From positions 1 to 24,802 of the IMG/VR virus record IMGVR_UViG_3300047352_000061: DNA of 24,802 bases; one strand, 5' to 3'. The position numbers and the translations under genes are program-made. Positions within the stretch are counted from its first letter, which is position 1. Each line of letters begins with the position of its first letter. Origin of the DNA: a virus. The notes under the pieces were generated by a model. The model worked only from the letters and a program-made list of their open reading frames with translations, searched no databases and was not told the origin of the DNA. Shown piece by piece: positions 2,125-23,858 of this stretch.

Positions 2125-2302
2125 TTGGGCTTGGAGTGTGTCAATCAATGACATCGCTAGCTCCGCTAGCATCAGCTACAGTCCACCACAGGTGACCGAG
2201 GCTAGCTACGCTAGCGAGGAACCAGTGTCAGAACCAAAGACAACTCATGATCACTCAAGTGATACATCAGCACTCCAGGATCTGTATGTTAGCGACAGCT
2301 AA
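2072..2302 (+). CDS. Doubtful 76-residue hypothetical protein
   Basis: A 76-codon frame from ATG 2072 with no clear ribosome-binding site. The product is Ser/Asp/Glu-rich, with no hydrophobic segment and no motif I know. The two GCTAGC palindromes inside it encode SSAS and ASYAS, which suggests that the DNA palindromes rather than the protein shape this stretch. It could be a real small acidic protein, but absence of a ribosome-binding site and of family resemblance argue against it. Confidence 0.22.
   Translation: MLTVTQRLMSGLGQAGSDWAWSVSINDIASSASISYSPPQVTEASYASEEPVSEPKTTHDHSSDTSALQDLYVSDS
2156..2215. repeat. Tandem pair of GCTAGC palindromes
   Basis: GCTAGCTCCGCTAGC (2156-2170) and GCTAGCTACGCTAGC (2201-2215) differ at one central base. 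Each is two GCTAGC hexamers around a 3-nt spacer, and the copies lie 45 bp apart centre to centre. CACAGGTGACCGA (2187-2199) lies between them and echoes CACAGGTAACCGA from hairpin 4. The arrangement looks like paired protein-binding sites. Confidence 0.6.
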
Positions 2303-2330
2303 CGTATGACTACTACAGTGAGAACATCAG

Positions 2331-2405
2331 ATGACTAATGTCGTCCTATGTGTCTGGTTGTCATCCCTGGTTATCTTGGTGCTTAGGTTGCAGTGGTTGG
2401 ACTGA
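2331..2405 (+). CDS. Possible 24-residue hydrophobic membrane peptide
   Basis: ATG 2331 opens a 24-codon frame ending TGA 2403-2405. Residues 3-20 are almost all Val, Leu, Ile, Trp, Cys or Ser (VVLCVWLSSLVILVLRL), long enough to span a membrane once. GTGAG lies 9 nt upstream as a weak ribosome-binding site. No lysis gene was found elsewhere in the window, so a small holin-like or membrane-acting role is possible but purely inferred. The length is within what chance can produce. Confidence 0.25.
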   Translation: MTNVVLCVWLSSLVILVLRLQWLD

Positions 2406-2429
2406 GGTAAACTGATGTCTGACACCAGT

Positions 2430-2443
2430 GGGACTTAGGTCCC
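2430..2443. repeat. Short GGGAC-TTAG-GTCCC hairpin
   Basis: GGGAC (2430-2434) and GTCCC (2439-2443) enclose a TTAG loop, followed by CGATTTGTACTT. The stem is short and the T-content after it is poor, so it is at best a weak terminator or processing signal. Confidence 0.35.
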
Positions 2444-2501
2444 GATTTGTACTTAAAAGAAACAAGGGTCATCCAGACATGCGTCGCCTAATGTCGCTAA
2501 T

Positions 2502-2517
2502 GTCTGAAACCTCAGAC
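2502..2517. repeat. Short GTCTGA-AACC-TCAGAC hairpin
   Basis: A perfect 6-bp stem with a 4-nt loop and no T-run after it. It lies in a stretch where GTCTGA/CAGAC words recur (about 2418, 2475, 2502, 2512). Function unknown. Confidence 0.35.
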
Positions 2518-2825
2518 CCGAAACCAGAGCAGACATCATATCCTCTCTGGTAAATAATCCAATGAAATCAATGGTTGACCATCAGTCGACATCAGATCCT
2601 CTAGGATTCTGGTACCATGGTCAGTCTTTTGACCCCCCAGTGGTCCAATCAATCAATCGATTTCAAAAGTCCGTTAAAGGTTGTGCTTGTTGTTGTTGTT
2701 GTCAGACCTTTCTAACGAGAGACCCAAGTTCTCCACCAGGGTCCGACCTTAGCTCAACATAAGCTCCCCCCGCCCCACAAAAGTCCGACCTAAGTCAGAC
2801 ACTAGTCCCGAAAGAGGAACACAAG

Positions 2826-3500
2826 ATGGCCTTAGAATCTGGCACGTACATCAACAGTCTGAACGCAGCGAACCCTGCGTCTACTGATGGCCTAGGTCAG
2901 GCTGACGACCACATCCGTCTAATCAAGAGCGCCATCAAGGCCACCTTCCCGAACCTAGATGGACCCGTGACTGCTACAGTCGCCAACCTGAATAGCACCA
3001 CCGCCATCCCTAGCGCCCTAACGGACCTGGGTATCTCTGATGGTAACGACGGTCAGGTACTAAAGACAGACGGCGCTGGCAACTTCAGCTTCTTTACGCT
3101 CCCCGCTGGTACTACCGACACGAACTACTATGTGACTGGTGGTTCTTACAGCGGTACCACCCTGACCCTTACCCGCAACGGCGGCTTAGGTAACATCAGT
3201 ATCAGTGGACTCCCAGCGGCAATCACAAATAACAACCAGTTAACCAACGGTGCTGGCTACGTTACTGCGGCGGCTATACCAGCTGCTCAGTCAACAAGTG
3301 CAGCGGCTGTAGGCACCTACACTTTTGCTCTTTCTAGTACCGTCCCAAGTCCAATTCCTGGGGGTACAGTGAGTGGAAGCCAACTGACGTATTCTGACGG
3401 TTCAGGTACTAACAATGTAGGCACTAGCCCTAGTCAGGGTACATGGCGTCTAATGGCACACTACGTGAACCGATCTTCGCTCTTTGTGCGTGTGTCATAG
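2826..3500 (+). CDS. Phage tail fibre / tail-associated structural protein
   Basis: A 224-residue protein. The N-terminus (MALESGTYINSLNAANP, then DGLGQADDHIRLIKSAIKAT at about residues 22-41) is the conserved opening found in many phage tail-fibre proteins, where it is followed by 'FPNLDGPVTAT'. The remainder is Gly/Thr/Ser/Asn-rich and low in charge, as expected of a beta-structured trimeric fibre shaft. AGAGGA seven nucleotides before the ATG is a good ribosome-binding site. It is the first gene after the non-coding region, so it is the first gene of the downstream unit, and the tail-chaperone-like gene follows 10 nt later. The protein is short for a complete receptor-binding fibre and may be a minor or accessory tail protein. 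Confidence 0.65.
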   Translation: MALESGTYINSLNAANPASTDGLGQADDHIRLIKSAIKATFPNLDGPVTATVANLNSTTAIPSALTDLGISDGNDGQVLKTDGAGNFSFFTLPAGTTDTNYYVTGGSYSGTTLTLTRNGGLGNISISGLPAAITNNNQLTNGAGYVTAAAIPAAQSTSAAAVGTYTFALSSTVPSPIPGGTVSGSQLTYSDGSGTNNVGTSPSQGTWRLMAHYVNRSSLFVRVS

Positions 3501-18783: not shown

Positions 18784-19909
18784 ATGGCTACATATACTAC
18801 ATACGACCAGGTTGGTAAGAAAGAGGATGTCTCAGATATCATCTCTGACATTACACCAACAGACACACCTATGTTCACAATGATGCGTTCAGAGAAAGTC
18901 TCTGCTCGTACATTTAGTTGGCTTGAAGACTCTTTGGCTGCCGCAGCGAACAACGCACAGGTTGAAGGGGCAGACGCAACTATGGCAACTCTTACAGATG
19001 CCACAGAGCGTACAAACAACACCCAGATCCTACATAAAGCGTTCCAAGTGTCTGCAACAGCTGATGCGATTGCAACATATGGTCGTGCGAAGGAAACTGC
19101 GTTAAGAATGGTAGCGTAGTATAAACGATGTGAATTCAAAGGAAGCCTAAGTCGAAAGATATGGTAACTTTGAGCGAAGCCTCGCAAGAGGAACGTGCAA
19201 CGACTATTCCGTAAGGAAGTACACCCAAGTGGGTGGAAGCGCATCGGTCAGTGACTAACTGACATGACATAGTCTGATCTTATGTGAAAGCATAAGCAGC
19301 CCTCAGGCGGTCTAAGATTAACGACCTTAGGCGAACATTAATGACCAACTTGGTAAGGCACTAAAAGAAATTAAGCGCGACCTAGAACGTGCTTATGTTG
19401 GTGTCGACAACGCGAAAGCAACTGGCTCAAGCTCAGTAGCGCGTGAGATGGACTCAGCGACACAACAGATTTCAACATCTGTCGACGCTGGTGCCAACGC
19501 AACTGACGCTCTAACAGAGGCGAAAGTCCTAGAGCTTGGTGAAGACTGCTTCAACAACGGTTCTGATCCAACAGTTCTAATGATCAAACCAGCGGATGCG
19601 CAGATCGTTGCAAACTTTGCAGCGGCGTCTGGTCGTAACCGTGAGATTGCTCAGGGACGCAACCTGGTCAACGTGATTGATTTGTACGTGTCTCCATACG
19701 GCGAATACAAAGTGGTTCTAAACCGCCACCAGTTGACTACACACGCATTCCTAATTGATCCGTCAATGTGGCGTTCATGTGTACTACGTCCGTTCTCACG
19801 TACACTGTTGGCGAAAAATGGGGACTCCGACAAACACTTTATCGTCGGCGAATACTCATTGAAACATATGAACTATGCTGACGGTGGTATGATCACTGGT
19901 CTTTCATAA
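18784..19909 (+). CDS. Major capsid protein, gene interrupted by a group I intron (join 18784-19102, 19344-19909)
   Basis: The main shell protein. Exon 1 (18784-19102) encodes 106 residues plus the first base of codon 107; exon 2 (19344-19909) supplies the rest. Joined, they give 885 nt, 294 residues, with no stop. The junction restores ETA-Y-QLGKALKEIKR, the T of exon 1 and AC of exon 2 forming Tyr107. Without splicing, translation would end at TAG 19117-19119 after 111 residues. The sequence (MATYTTYDQVGKKEDVSDII, then TPMFTMMRSEKVSARTFSW and later GRNREIAQGRNLVNVIDLYV, ending with MNYADGGMITGLS) resembles the SU10-type capsid family (formerly DUF5309) as I remember it. Location after the scaffold and before a strong terminator supports the call. 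GAAGGA upstream of ATG 18784 is the ribosome-binding site. The intron sits in a conserved segment, as is typical. Confidence 0.88.
19103..19343 (+). ncRNA. Group I self-splicing intron (td-like, subgroup IA2 style), no ORF
   Basis: A 241-nt intron in the capsid gene. P1: exon CTGCGT (19097-19102) pairs fully with guide GCGTAG (19114-19119), ending in the required U-G pair at the 5' splice site. P3: CGATGTG (19126-19132) with CGCATCG (19240-19246). P4: TTCAAAG (19135-19141) with CTTTGAG (19168-19174). P5 carries a GAAA loop near 19154, P6a is CCTC-GCAA-GAGG (19180-19191). P7: GACTAT (19202-19207) with ATAGTC (19269-19274). P7.1 is TCC-GTAA-GGA, P7.2 CACCC/GGGTG (19222-19235). P8: GTCAGT/ACTGAC (19247-19263). 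P9: CTTATG/CATAAG (19279-19296). A later stem is GTCTAAG/CTTAGGC (about 19310-19332). P10: TGGT (19109-19112) with exon 2 ACCA (19344-19347). The last base is G19343. TAAGATTAACGACCTTA near the end nearly equals what I recall of T4 td. No homing endonuclease is encoded. Confidence 0.93.
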
Positions 19910-19963: not shown

Positions 19964-20039
19964 GAGGGTCATCCTTGTCGTCCTTGGGGTTTTCCGCTCT
20001 CCTTACCCTGGACGACTTGGGTGGCCCTCTTTTTGTTTT
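19964..20039 (+). terminator. Strong intrinsic terminator after the capsid gene
   Basis: The 20-nt arms 19964-19983 and 20010-20029 pair as GAGGG/CCCTC, TCATCC/GGGTGG (with wobble pairs) and GTCGTCC/GGACGAC, separated by one TT/TT internal mismatch and a 26-nt loop. TTTTTGTTTT follows immediately (20030-20039). This is the clearest terminator in the window. It would end or attenuate transcripts right after the capsid gene, raising capsid mRNA relative to downstream genes. Confidence 0.85.
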
Positions 20040-21335: not shown

Positions 21336-23858
21336 ATGGCAAAATCAAGTTTCTTCAGCGGCACTGGTACTAACTCCACTGACGTTGACTCAATCACAAG
21401 TTCCAAGGCCGCAGCAGAAACAGCAGCAACAAATGCCGCTACCAGCGAAACCAATGCTGCATCCTCTGCGTCATCAGCATCTACCAGTGCATCTAACGCA
21501 TCTACCAGCGCATCTAATGCATCTAATAGTGCAACTGCCGCTGCTACTTCAGAAACTAATGCTGCATCCAGTGCATCAGCCGCATCTGTAAGTCAGACCT
21601 CTGCTTCTAACAGTGCTACCGCAGCATCAAATTCAGCTACCAATGCAGCCACAAGCGAGGCTAACGCTGCATCTTCAGCTACAAGTGCCGCATCTAGTGC
21701 AACATCGGCTTCCACAGATGCCGCCGCCGCAGCAACTAGCCTTTCGAACATCGGTGCAGCAGAAACTAATGCAGCAAACAGTGCTACAGCGGCAGCAACA
21801 TCTCAGACAGCCGCAGCCACCTCTGCGACGAATGCTGCAACCTCAGAAACAAACGCGGCGACTTCTGCAACAACGGCATCTACTGCCGCGACAAATGCAG
21901 CGACATCAGAAACCAATGCTGCCACTTCTGAAACGAATGCAGCGACGAGCGCAACCAACGCGGCAACCTCAGAAACCAATGCTGCAACTTCTGCGACAAG
22001 CGCGTCTACATCTGCATCTAACGCTGCAACGTCAGCATCTGCGGCAAGTGCATCACAAGTTTCTGCGGCAGCATCTGCTGCATCAGCGGCGAACTCCTAC
22101 GACTTATTTGATGACCGCTACCTTGGCACAAAGACATCTGATCCTACCGTTGATAACGATGGGAATGCTTTGGTTGCGGGTGCGTTGTACTTCAATAGCA
22201 CAGCTAACGAAATGCGTGTGTATGACGGTGCAAACTGGATTGCGGCATCATCGGCTGGCGGTGCGTCACTGCTTGAGTACAAATACACAGCGACATCTGG
22301 TCAGACTACGTTCTCTGGTGCAGACGACAATGCGAACTCCCTGTCATACACTCAGGACAATCTAATCGTCACACTGAACGGCGTTGTGCTTGAGAATGGC
22401 ACAGACTACACGGCGACAACTGGTACGTCAGTTGTGCTGGCCTCTGGCGCGGCTACAAGCGACGAACTTAACGTCATTGCGTTTAAGACATTCACTACCG
22501 CAGACATGGTTGCCGCAAGCACTGGCGGTACGTTCTATGGTGATGTTGAGGTGCAGGGGACTTTGACCAGCGATGGGCTGACTGTGGATGGTAATGTTGG
22601 AATTGGGACGAGTTCGCCTAGCAATTATCATACTGGTACAAACTTAACTCTTTTTGGGTCTGGAGATAGCGGTGTAACTATTGCATCTGGTATATCTAAT
22701 GCAAGTCGTATTCATTTTGCAGATGGAACATCAGGAGATGCCCAATATCGGGGTTATGTAGTATATGCTCATGCAAGTGACAGTCTTCAAATTGCTACTT
22801 CTGGCTCAGAAGCCATGCGCATCGACAGCAGTGGTAATGTTGGAATTGGGACGAGTTCGCCTAGTGAAAAACTTCATGTAGAAGGTAATGCAAGATTAGC
22901 AGACGCAGGTTCTATTCAGTTTGGTTCAAGTAAATATCAAACACTAACAGGGCAAGCTGGCTCTAATGATTTATTATATAGAACATATGCTAATCACATT
23001 TTTAAAACAACCACAGGACCATCTGATAATTCTGATGGCACAGAACGCATGCGCATCGACAGCAGCGGTAACTTGCTGGTGGGGACTACGAGTTCAACGC
23101 CCCACACGGGAACAAGCACAGGTGTTGCCATCCGCAATGATGGCGGTGTGTTTTTTACAAGAGCAAACGCAGATGTTCTAAATGTAAACCGCACAACATC
23201 TGATGGGGCTATTGCTCAATTCCGCAAAGACGGCACCACTGTGGGGAGTATTGGGACTAACGGTAGTGACCTCTATATAGGTTCAACTGACTCGCTACAC
23301 GGCGGTGTAACCTTTGCACAAAGAGCAATGTTACCTAATTTGAATGGTGTTACACCTAACGATGGTGGCACTGATTTGGGTGGAAGTTCTAATCGTTGGC
23401 GTGACGCTTACCTATCAGGCGGTGTATACCTTGGCGGCACTGGGTCGGCTAATAAGCTGGATGACTATGAGGAGGGGACGCATAACATTACATTAAATCA
23501 AGGTGGTGTAGGTCTTAATACTTCGTATCACGCATGGAGATACACTAAAATTGGTCGGATGGTTTATATAGAAGGTTTGTTTTTGGCAAGCAGTAGTGGC
23601 GATACAAATATTGTTAAAATTAATCTTCCATTTACCTATCTCTCAAGATCAGGAAATACAGCCGATCAAATTATACAAACCGTTGGATCATACGATGTTC
23701 CAACTGGATCGGGAGGATTAAAAGGATCAATTGTTAATAATACATCTTTATTAGAATTTAGAAAGACAGTTGATAATGGAGCGTGGACTTCTTTAGTAGG
23801 AACCGAAATGGCTTCAGGAGATCACATCTATGTAAACTTAGCTTACCCAACAACATAA
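21336..23858 (+). CDS. Tail fibre protein with Ala/Ser/Thr/Asn repeats
   Basis: An 840-residue fibre likely used for host attachment. Residues about 22-252 are a low-complexity array built from Ala, Ser, Thr, Asn and Glu (variants of SATNAATSETNAAT), typical of trimeric fibre shafts. A short domain (FDDRYLGTKTSDP to MRVYDGANW, about residues 256-305) and a beta-rich part (ATSGQTTFSGADDNANSLSY, VLENGTDYTATTG) follow. Two VGIGTSSPS units (about residues 422 and 503) and repeated MRIDSSGN motifs mark a shaft before the tip. The C-terminal 250 residues are more aromatic and less repetitive, ending HIYVNLAYPTT, presumably the receptor-binding tip. No peptidase S74 chaperone motif is seen. The DNA from about 22610 onward is visibly more AT-rich than its neighbours. 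TAAGG lies upstream of ATG 21336. Confidence 0.8.
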   Translation: MAKSSFFSGTGTNSTDVDSITSSKAAAETAATNAATSETNAASSASSASTSASNASTSASNASNSATAAATSETNAASSASAASVSQTSASNSATAASNSATNAATSEANAASSATSAASSATSASTDAAAAATSLSNIGAAETNAANSATAAATSQTAAATSATNAATSETNAATSATTASTAATNAATSETNAATSETNAATSATNAATSETNAATSATSASTSASNAATSASAASASQVSAAASAASAANSYDLFDDRYLGTKTSDPTVDNDGNALVAGALYFNSTANEMRVYDGANWIAASSAGGASLLEYKYTATSGQTTFSGADDNANSLSYTQDNLIVTLNGVVLENGTDYTATTGTSVVLASGAATSDELNVIAFKTFTTADMVAASTGGTFYGDVEVQGTLTSDGLTVDGNVGIGTSSPSNYHTGTNLTLFGSGDSGVTIASGISNASRIHFADGTSGDAQYRGYVVYAHASDSLQIATSGSEAMRIDSSGNVGIGTSSPSEKLHVEGNARLADAGSIQFGSSKYQTLTGQAGSNDLLYRTYANHIFKTTTGPSDNSDGTERMRIDSSGNLLVGTTSSTPHTGTSTGVAIRNDGGVFFTRANADVLNVNRTTSDGAIAQFRKDGTTVGSIGTNGSDLYIGSTDSLHGGVTFAQRAMLPNLNGVTPNDGGTDLGGSSNRWRDAYLSGGVYLGGTGSANKLDDYEEGTHNITLNQGGVGLNTSYHAWRYTKIGRMVYIEGLFLASSSGDTNIVKINLPFTYLSRSGNTADQIIQTVGSYDVPTGSGGLKGSIVNNTSLLEFRKTVDNGAWTSLVGTEMASGDHIYVNLAYPTT
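22589..22864 (+). repeat. Two exact 33-nt direct repeats in the fibre gene
   Basis: Positions 22589-22621 and 22832-22864 are identical over 33 nt, both coding GNVGIGTSSPS. A shorter related repeat, ATGCGCATCGACAGCAG, occurs at about 22815 and 23049. Identity at all codon positions suggests recent duplication or selection for recombination; the distance is 243 nt, a multiple of three, so exchange would keep the frame. Confidence 0.8.

Follow-up and report, generated by a model that had tools for sequence, protein, structure and literature searches.

An interrupted major capsid gene

What interrupts the major capsid gene of this aquatic tailed phage, whose reading frame stops at position 19119 and resumes at 19344? 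The gene lies in IMG/VR record IMGVR_UViG_3300047352_000061, analysed here as a single stretch of 24,802 nt (the window), where an SU10-type major capsid gene (18784–19909, + strand, as are all parts of the gene and its insertion given below) lies between terminase, portal, scaffold and virion genes. The stop and the resumption, first pointed out in a preliminary description of this DNA, can be seen both in the sequence and in a mechanical list of open reading frames. Unspliced, the frame runs from an ATG at 18784 to the stop at 19119 (111 aa) and a stretch open in another frame follows from 19344, with the ORFs listed across the gene being 18784–19119 and 19448–19909.

We consider it almost certain that a small self-splicing intron of group IA (IA2-like) takes up positions 19103–19343; it belongs to a family which occupies ten sites in this gene and probably moves horizontally. 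Excision of these 241 nt, which contain no ORF, leaves a single gapless frame of 294 codons in which Tyr107 is rebuilt as T|AC, as the preliminary description had proposed. Exon 1 (18784–19102) comprises codons 1–106 plus the T of Tyr107 and covers PF17236 positions 2–106, exon 2 (19344–19909) runs from the remainder of Tyr107 to the stop codon, and the spliced product is a full-length match to the PF17236 family (SU10_MCP, 273.8 bits, positions 2–291/292). Group I introns require a U·G pair at the 5′ splice site and terminate in G. Here, exon 1 ends in U19102, paired as U·G with G19114 in P1, and the intron ends in G19343.

Natural intron-free alleles fix these boundaries independently. Two contigs (L003 and L004), whose capsid proteins are 99% identical to that of the window, lack the intron and show 0/40 nt mismatches around the junction GCGT^ACCA. 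The originally proposed coordinates and splice sites of the ORF-less intron are correct. Two further contigs (L085 and L095) carry the window’s intron at the identical site with 97–98% identity, hence it is no assembly artefact. The broader concern that chimeric assembly or sequencing error in metagenomic contigs produced such introns arises because the related sequences, with a single exception, come from metagenome assemblies and one scaffold is visibly misjoined over Ns (L183:9455–9772, where the start of a codon-107 intron is fused to a codon-222 intron; it was left out of the counts). We regard its probability as negligible, given that identical or near-identical intron alleles come from different samples (L017–L020; L346 and L348; L085 and L095 with the window) and that such an intron also occurs in a deposited circular genome, OQ984150.

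Ribozyme fold and covariation

The Rfam group I model (Intron_gpI, RF00028) matched the window over its full length (model positions 1–253, alignment 19044–19296) with 67.9 bits and E = 1.7e-15, against a cut-off (gathering score) of 50 bits, giving the covariance-model check suggested in the preliminary description a positive outcome. Pairing by hand gave zero mismatches in P1, P3, P4, P5, P6, P7, P7.1, P7.2, P8, P9, P9.1 and P9.2. The conserved pairings P1 and P3–P9 had been claimed beforehand, together with the U·G pair, the terminal G and P10, the last of which is a possible pairing. P1 (19096–19120) joins the exon end ACUGCGU (19096–19102) to the guide GCGUAGU (19114–19120) with 7/7 pairs, including the U·G at the splice site, and is 6–7 bp long in the other introns at Tyr107. 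From its sequence, the putative P10 half GGU (19110–19112) could pair with ACC (19344–19346) at the start of exon 2.

The core consists of P3 (19126–19132/19240–19246), P4 (19136–19141/19168–19173), P5 within the P4–P5 domain (19136–19173), P6/P6a with a GCAA loop (19174–19196; Rfam alignment, hand pairing and covariation), P7 (GACUAU 19202–19207/AUAGUC 19269–19274) and P8 (19247–19263; hand pairing and covariation). The conserved P3/P4/P6/P7/P8 arrangement with its P3–P7 pseudoknot is therefore present and backed by covariation. Between P7 and P3 lie the hairpins P7.1 (19208–19217) and P7.2 (19222–19235), a hallmark of subgroup IA, and the 3′ domain (19279–19332) holds P9 (19279–19296, GAAA loop 19286–19289), P9.1 (19299–19308) and P9.2 (19310–19332). 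The intron is of subgroup IA by these sequence features and appears IA2-like. The 11-nt GAAA receptor (CCUAAG 19146–19151/UAUGG 19160–19164) occurs as a single copy in the window, both strands counted, and sits exactly in P5. Across the 61 distinct introns of the lineage, a GAAA or GAGA P9 loop is found in 17/24 of those with the receptor versus 4/37 without, an association inflated by shared descent.

Compensatory changes point to selection on this fold, since they exceed what shuffled and slid alignments give. Paired cells made up 91.7% of an alignment of nine introns and 95.2% of one of 24; in the latter, sliding the partners by 1–3 columns lowered pairing to 30–42%, and the 37 pairs with changes on both sides were above all 500 shuffles. 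P3, P4, P6a and P9.2 were paired in 100% of cells of the 24-intron alignment. Three pairs in P3, six of seven in P9.2 and all of those in P7.2 had changed on both sides, and the pair G19202–C19274 in P7, presumably the guanosine-binding pair expected of group I introns, was invariant across the 24 introns.

Could the insertion instead be degenerate, leaving a 111-aa N-terminal part and a C-terminal part with an internal start which either cooperate or are dead? Two ORFs are indeed listed separately, and phage proteins split into two working chains exist (Aeh1 NrdA, as cited in PMC7344957). Decay of the insertion is at odds with core helices that are all intact and with the compensatory changes, the C-terminal ORF alone would be without residues 107–141, and the frame is kept exactly over the junction in every relative, even in genes with four introns. 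We therefore find a non-splicing insertion very improbable.

For the self-splicing intron, the fold, boundaries and restored frame can be read from the sequence itself, and the catalytic steps would be those of the group I family. The intron would fold in the late mRNA and place the exon 1 end ACUGCGU in P1, guanosine would be bound at P7 and cleavage would occur after U19102, and U19102 would be ligated to A19344 with the help of P10, so that codon 107 would again read UAC and the capsid protein would have its 294 aa. The intact G19202–C19274 pair suggests that splicing is initiated by guanosine, and it is a fair inference that virion production depends on splicing.

Intron load of the capsid gene across relatives

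Relatives were gathered by capsid protein, by intron patterns and then by the exon between codons 107 and 222. The last query was used for an unbiased count because ranking by full protein favours uninterrupted genes; the intron-pattern scan was lax and also returned many unrelated contigs. At least one intron was present in 35/67 distinct close capsid alleles, a count which refers to the nearest 80 matches rather than to all SU10-type capsids. The introns occupy ten sites (Y7, I19, I23, P25/T26, L51, V60, F87, Y107, V222 and Y225), located by a splice-site search in which the final base of the upstream exon was set as U, with four contigs assigned by eye (L352 to I23, L303 and L353 to P25/T26, L346 to L51). 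Among 145 distinct alleles, all of the spliced capsid genes were free of stops, with the frame continuous over each junction.

The 61 distinct introns measure 235–308 nt. Their stop-free stretches reach 86 codons at most, and none of the introns encodes an endonuclease. The heaviest load was seen in two contigs from different samples, L346 (1169–2800) and L348, whose capsid genes each contain four introns at codons 19, 51, 107 and 222 and splice to a gapless frame of 294 aa. Their introns (252, 273, 242 and 256 nt, each over the Rfam cut-off) total 1023 nt versus 882 nt of coding sequence. The capsid protein of L347 equals that of L348, the L347 gene being without the Ile19 intron, and three introns were found in L083, L089 and L389. 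The scanned contigs reach 41.6 kb in length, and all of their group I hits fall in the capsid gene, with no other gene containing one. At the level of sequence, the capsid gene of this lineage is an intron hot spot.

Deposited phage genomes include only one with a noted capsid-gene intron, and 296/302 deposited capsid matches span 80% or more of the protein in a single stretch. The exception, Phage C72C1 (OQ984150, L082), is a circular genome in which an intron without an ORF interrupts the homologous Tyr codon (GCGT^ACCA). In its record (2157–3349) the gene appears as two separate ‘major head protein’ pieces, with hypothetical ORFs marked within the group I intron; no intron is annotated and the deposited annotation misses splicing. 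None of the C72C1 capsid relatives was interrupted among the best 80 matches listed, a ranking which favours uninterrupted genes.

Genomic context and endonuclease searches

A relative was present in each of four bacterial-genome contigs, the best in a Gammaproteobacteria MAG (77%), which is insufficient for naming a host. The contig of the near-complete relative L095 (39.5 kb; L390:11455–12294) carries a single-subunit RNA polymerase, T7-like replication genes and an integrase, hence the lineage may be able to lysogenise. In the window, a long inverted repeat followed by a T run lies directly 3′ of the capsid gene (19964–20035) and probably serves the late operon as an intrinsic terminator or attenuator. 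The truncated nrdA at the start of the window was also considered as the site of a second intron, which was ruled out, as the frame runs off the contig edge. The only other RNA family detected was isrG, in two weak matches (about 24 bits against a cut-off of 100) that are probably due to chance and lie at 21553–22095 on the – strand, antisense to a repetitive tail-fibre gene.

Homing endonucleases of the common families were sought at several scales. No HNH_3 (Pfam) gene was present in 22 scanned contigs, the window among them being a fragment, and no HNH, GIY-YIG or LAGLIDADG_3 gene in 16 scanned contigs, some of them incomplete. The window and L095 had no gene of any of these four Pfam families. 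When most non-structural ORFs of L095 were compared with PHROGs, no common homing-family endonuclease was seen; the matches were limited to a T7-endonuclease-I-like gene and to unremarkable replication, lysis and integrase genes. Intron-related DNA was also sought in plasmids and E. coli genomes, which gave partial plasmid matches or nothing.

Inheritance and probable movement of the introns

Introns and exons of the same genes differ in how far they have diverged. The window’s intron is 91–92% identical to those of L089, L213 and L221, inside exons which are 71–76% identical (45–50% at third positions), and in this comparison identity is raised within 11 codons either side of the Tyr107 site. 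Structural constraint could explain part of the contrast, although identity is down to about 78% for the Tyr107 introns of L083, L190 and L211. The same-site intron of C72C1 is about 70–78% identical to that of the window in spite of capsid proteins that are only 33% identical over their length.

On the capsid tree, presence of the Tyr107 intron requires 11 changes (10 of them forced by well-supported branches), with 14 for Ile19 and 12 for Val222. The intron tree shows grouping by site, needing 12 changes for ten site labels (minimum 9, shuffled mean 34.9), and the Tyr107 introns fall nearly together (three changes). Such loyalty of introns to their sites is what purely vertical inheritance would give, with patchiness through loss alone, and the exact empty alleles make losses plausible. 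We nevertheless judge this history unlikely, in view of the intron–exon identity contrast, the C72C1 intron and the capsid tree, on which each site needs 11 to 14 label changes. The best reading of the sequences is horizontal movement into a fixed site combined with frequent loss, in which an intron would pass from one co-infecting phage to the homologous site of another, recombination or trans-acting homing being the probable means, and would often be lost again.

The intron-plus Tyr107 alleles (the misjoined L183 excepted) keep the sequence ACTGCGT^ACCAA, with GTTGCGT^ACCAG in C72C1, whereas only 14/54 intron-free alleles use ACTGCGT. The exon 1 side is the cleaner comparison because the pattern scan partly constrains the exon 2 side. 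This bias among synonymous codons would be expected were the codons fixed by P1 pairing or by target choice. In L352 (about 1680–1936), an intron is inserted at Ile23, which is four codons away from the frequently used site at Ile19, and GACAT precedes both; the shared motif hints that movement is guided by short target similarity. The Tyr7 intron of L190 and the Tyr107 intron of L186 are sisters on the intron tree, joined with 99/98 support and on a long branch, and may reflect a switch of site.

We tentatively suggest, while leaning somewhat against it, that the capsid gene is a dedicated landing ground on which endonuclease-less group IA introns spread without a recognisable homing endonuclease. 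The route could be a trans-acting nuclease, recombination alone, or reverse splicing into short targets like the GACAT at codons 19 and 23. The first of these corresponds to collaborative homing, discussed in PMC10448857.

Comparison with known systems

The T4 td, nrdB and nrdD, SPO1 and Twort introns belong to the known phage group IA2 family. The window’s intron shares with them the P3–P9 core, P7.1/P7.2, the 5′ U·G and the terminal G, and differs in its host, a capsid gene, and in having no endonuclease ORF. At the DNA level it has many relatives in phages, at 70–78% identity. Its length had been described as among the smaller phage examples, a claim we do not retain, as there is nothing unusual in 241 nt for an intron without an ORF (265 nt in the BAKA tail intron, PMC3706429; Jug-phage introns average about 206 nt, PMC12363816; those of this lineage are 235–308 nt).

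Recent surveys raise the question of why the group I introns of phages are nearly confined to genes of nucleotide and DNA metabolism (PMC11878797), a preference called ‘mysterious’ (PMC12350094). This lineage is a clear counter-example, its introns being confined, on the scanned contigs, to the most highly needed structural gene. With this intron load, capsid synthesis would rely on up to four splicing events; any regulatory role would be hypothetical. Gene callers fragment such capsid genes, as in C72C1, so that a common marker gene is hidden in metagenomes. Natural alleles with and without the intron, nearly identical in sequence, offer a direct way to test homing, cost and splicing efficiency.

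The preliminary description was right that the intron lies in a capsid gene, though its stress on the location as unusual has to be tempered by precedents. In the cluster J mycobacteriophage LittleE, splicing of a capsid intron was proven by RT-PCR and N-terminal sequencing (PMC3706429), and the same paper cites an intron in the capsid gene of Tuc2009. LittleE likewise has a group I-like intron in its major capsid gene, but the capsid is HK97-type, the 819-bp insertion contains a LAGLIDADG-like gene, and it is a case of one site in one phage. Several group I introns per phage gene are also known, with three in Twort orf142 (tail tube), three in the ICP1 tape measure gene (PMC10448857) and two to three in DNA polymerase and terminase genes of Bastillevirinae (PMC11878797). 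In contrast to these, up to four introns occur here in an 882-nt capsid gene, at ten sites and without an endonuclease ORF. A search of open-licence literature turned up no report of a four-intron capsid gene or of a lineage with capsid-confined introns. As a ribozyme the intron is ordinary, and introns in capsid genes were already known; what our analysis adds is the wider intron pattern of the gene.
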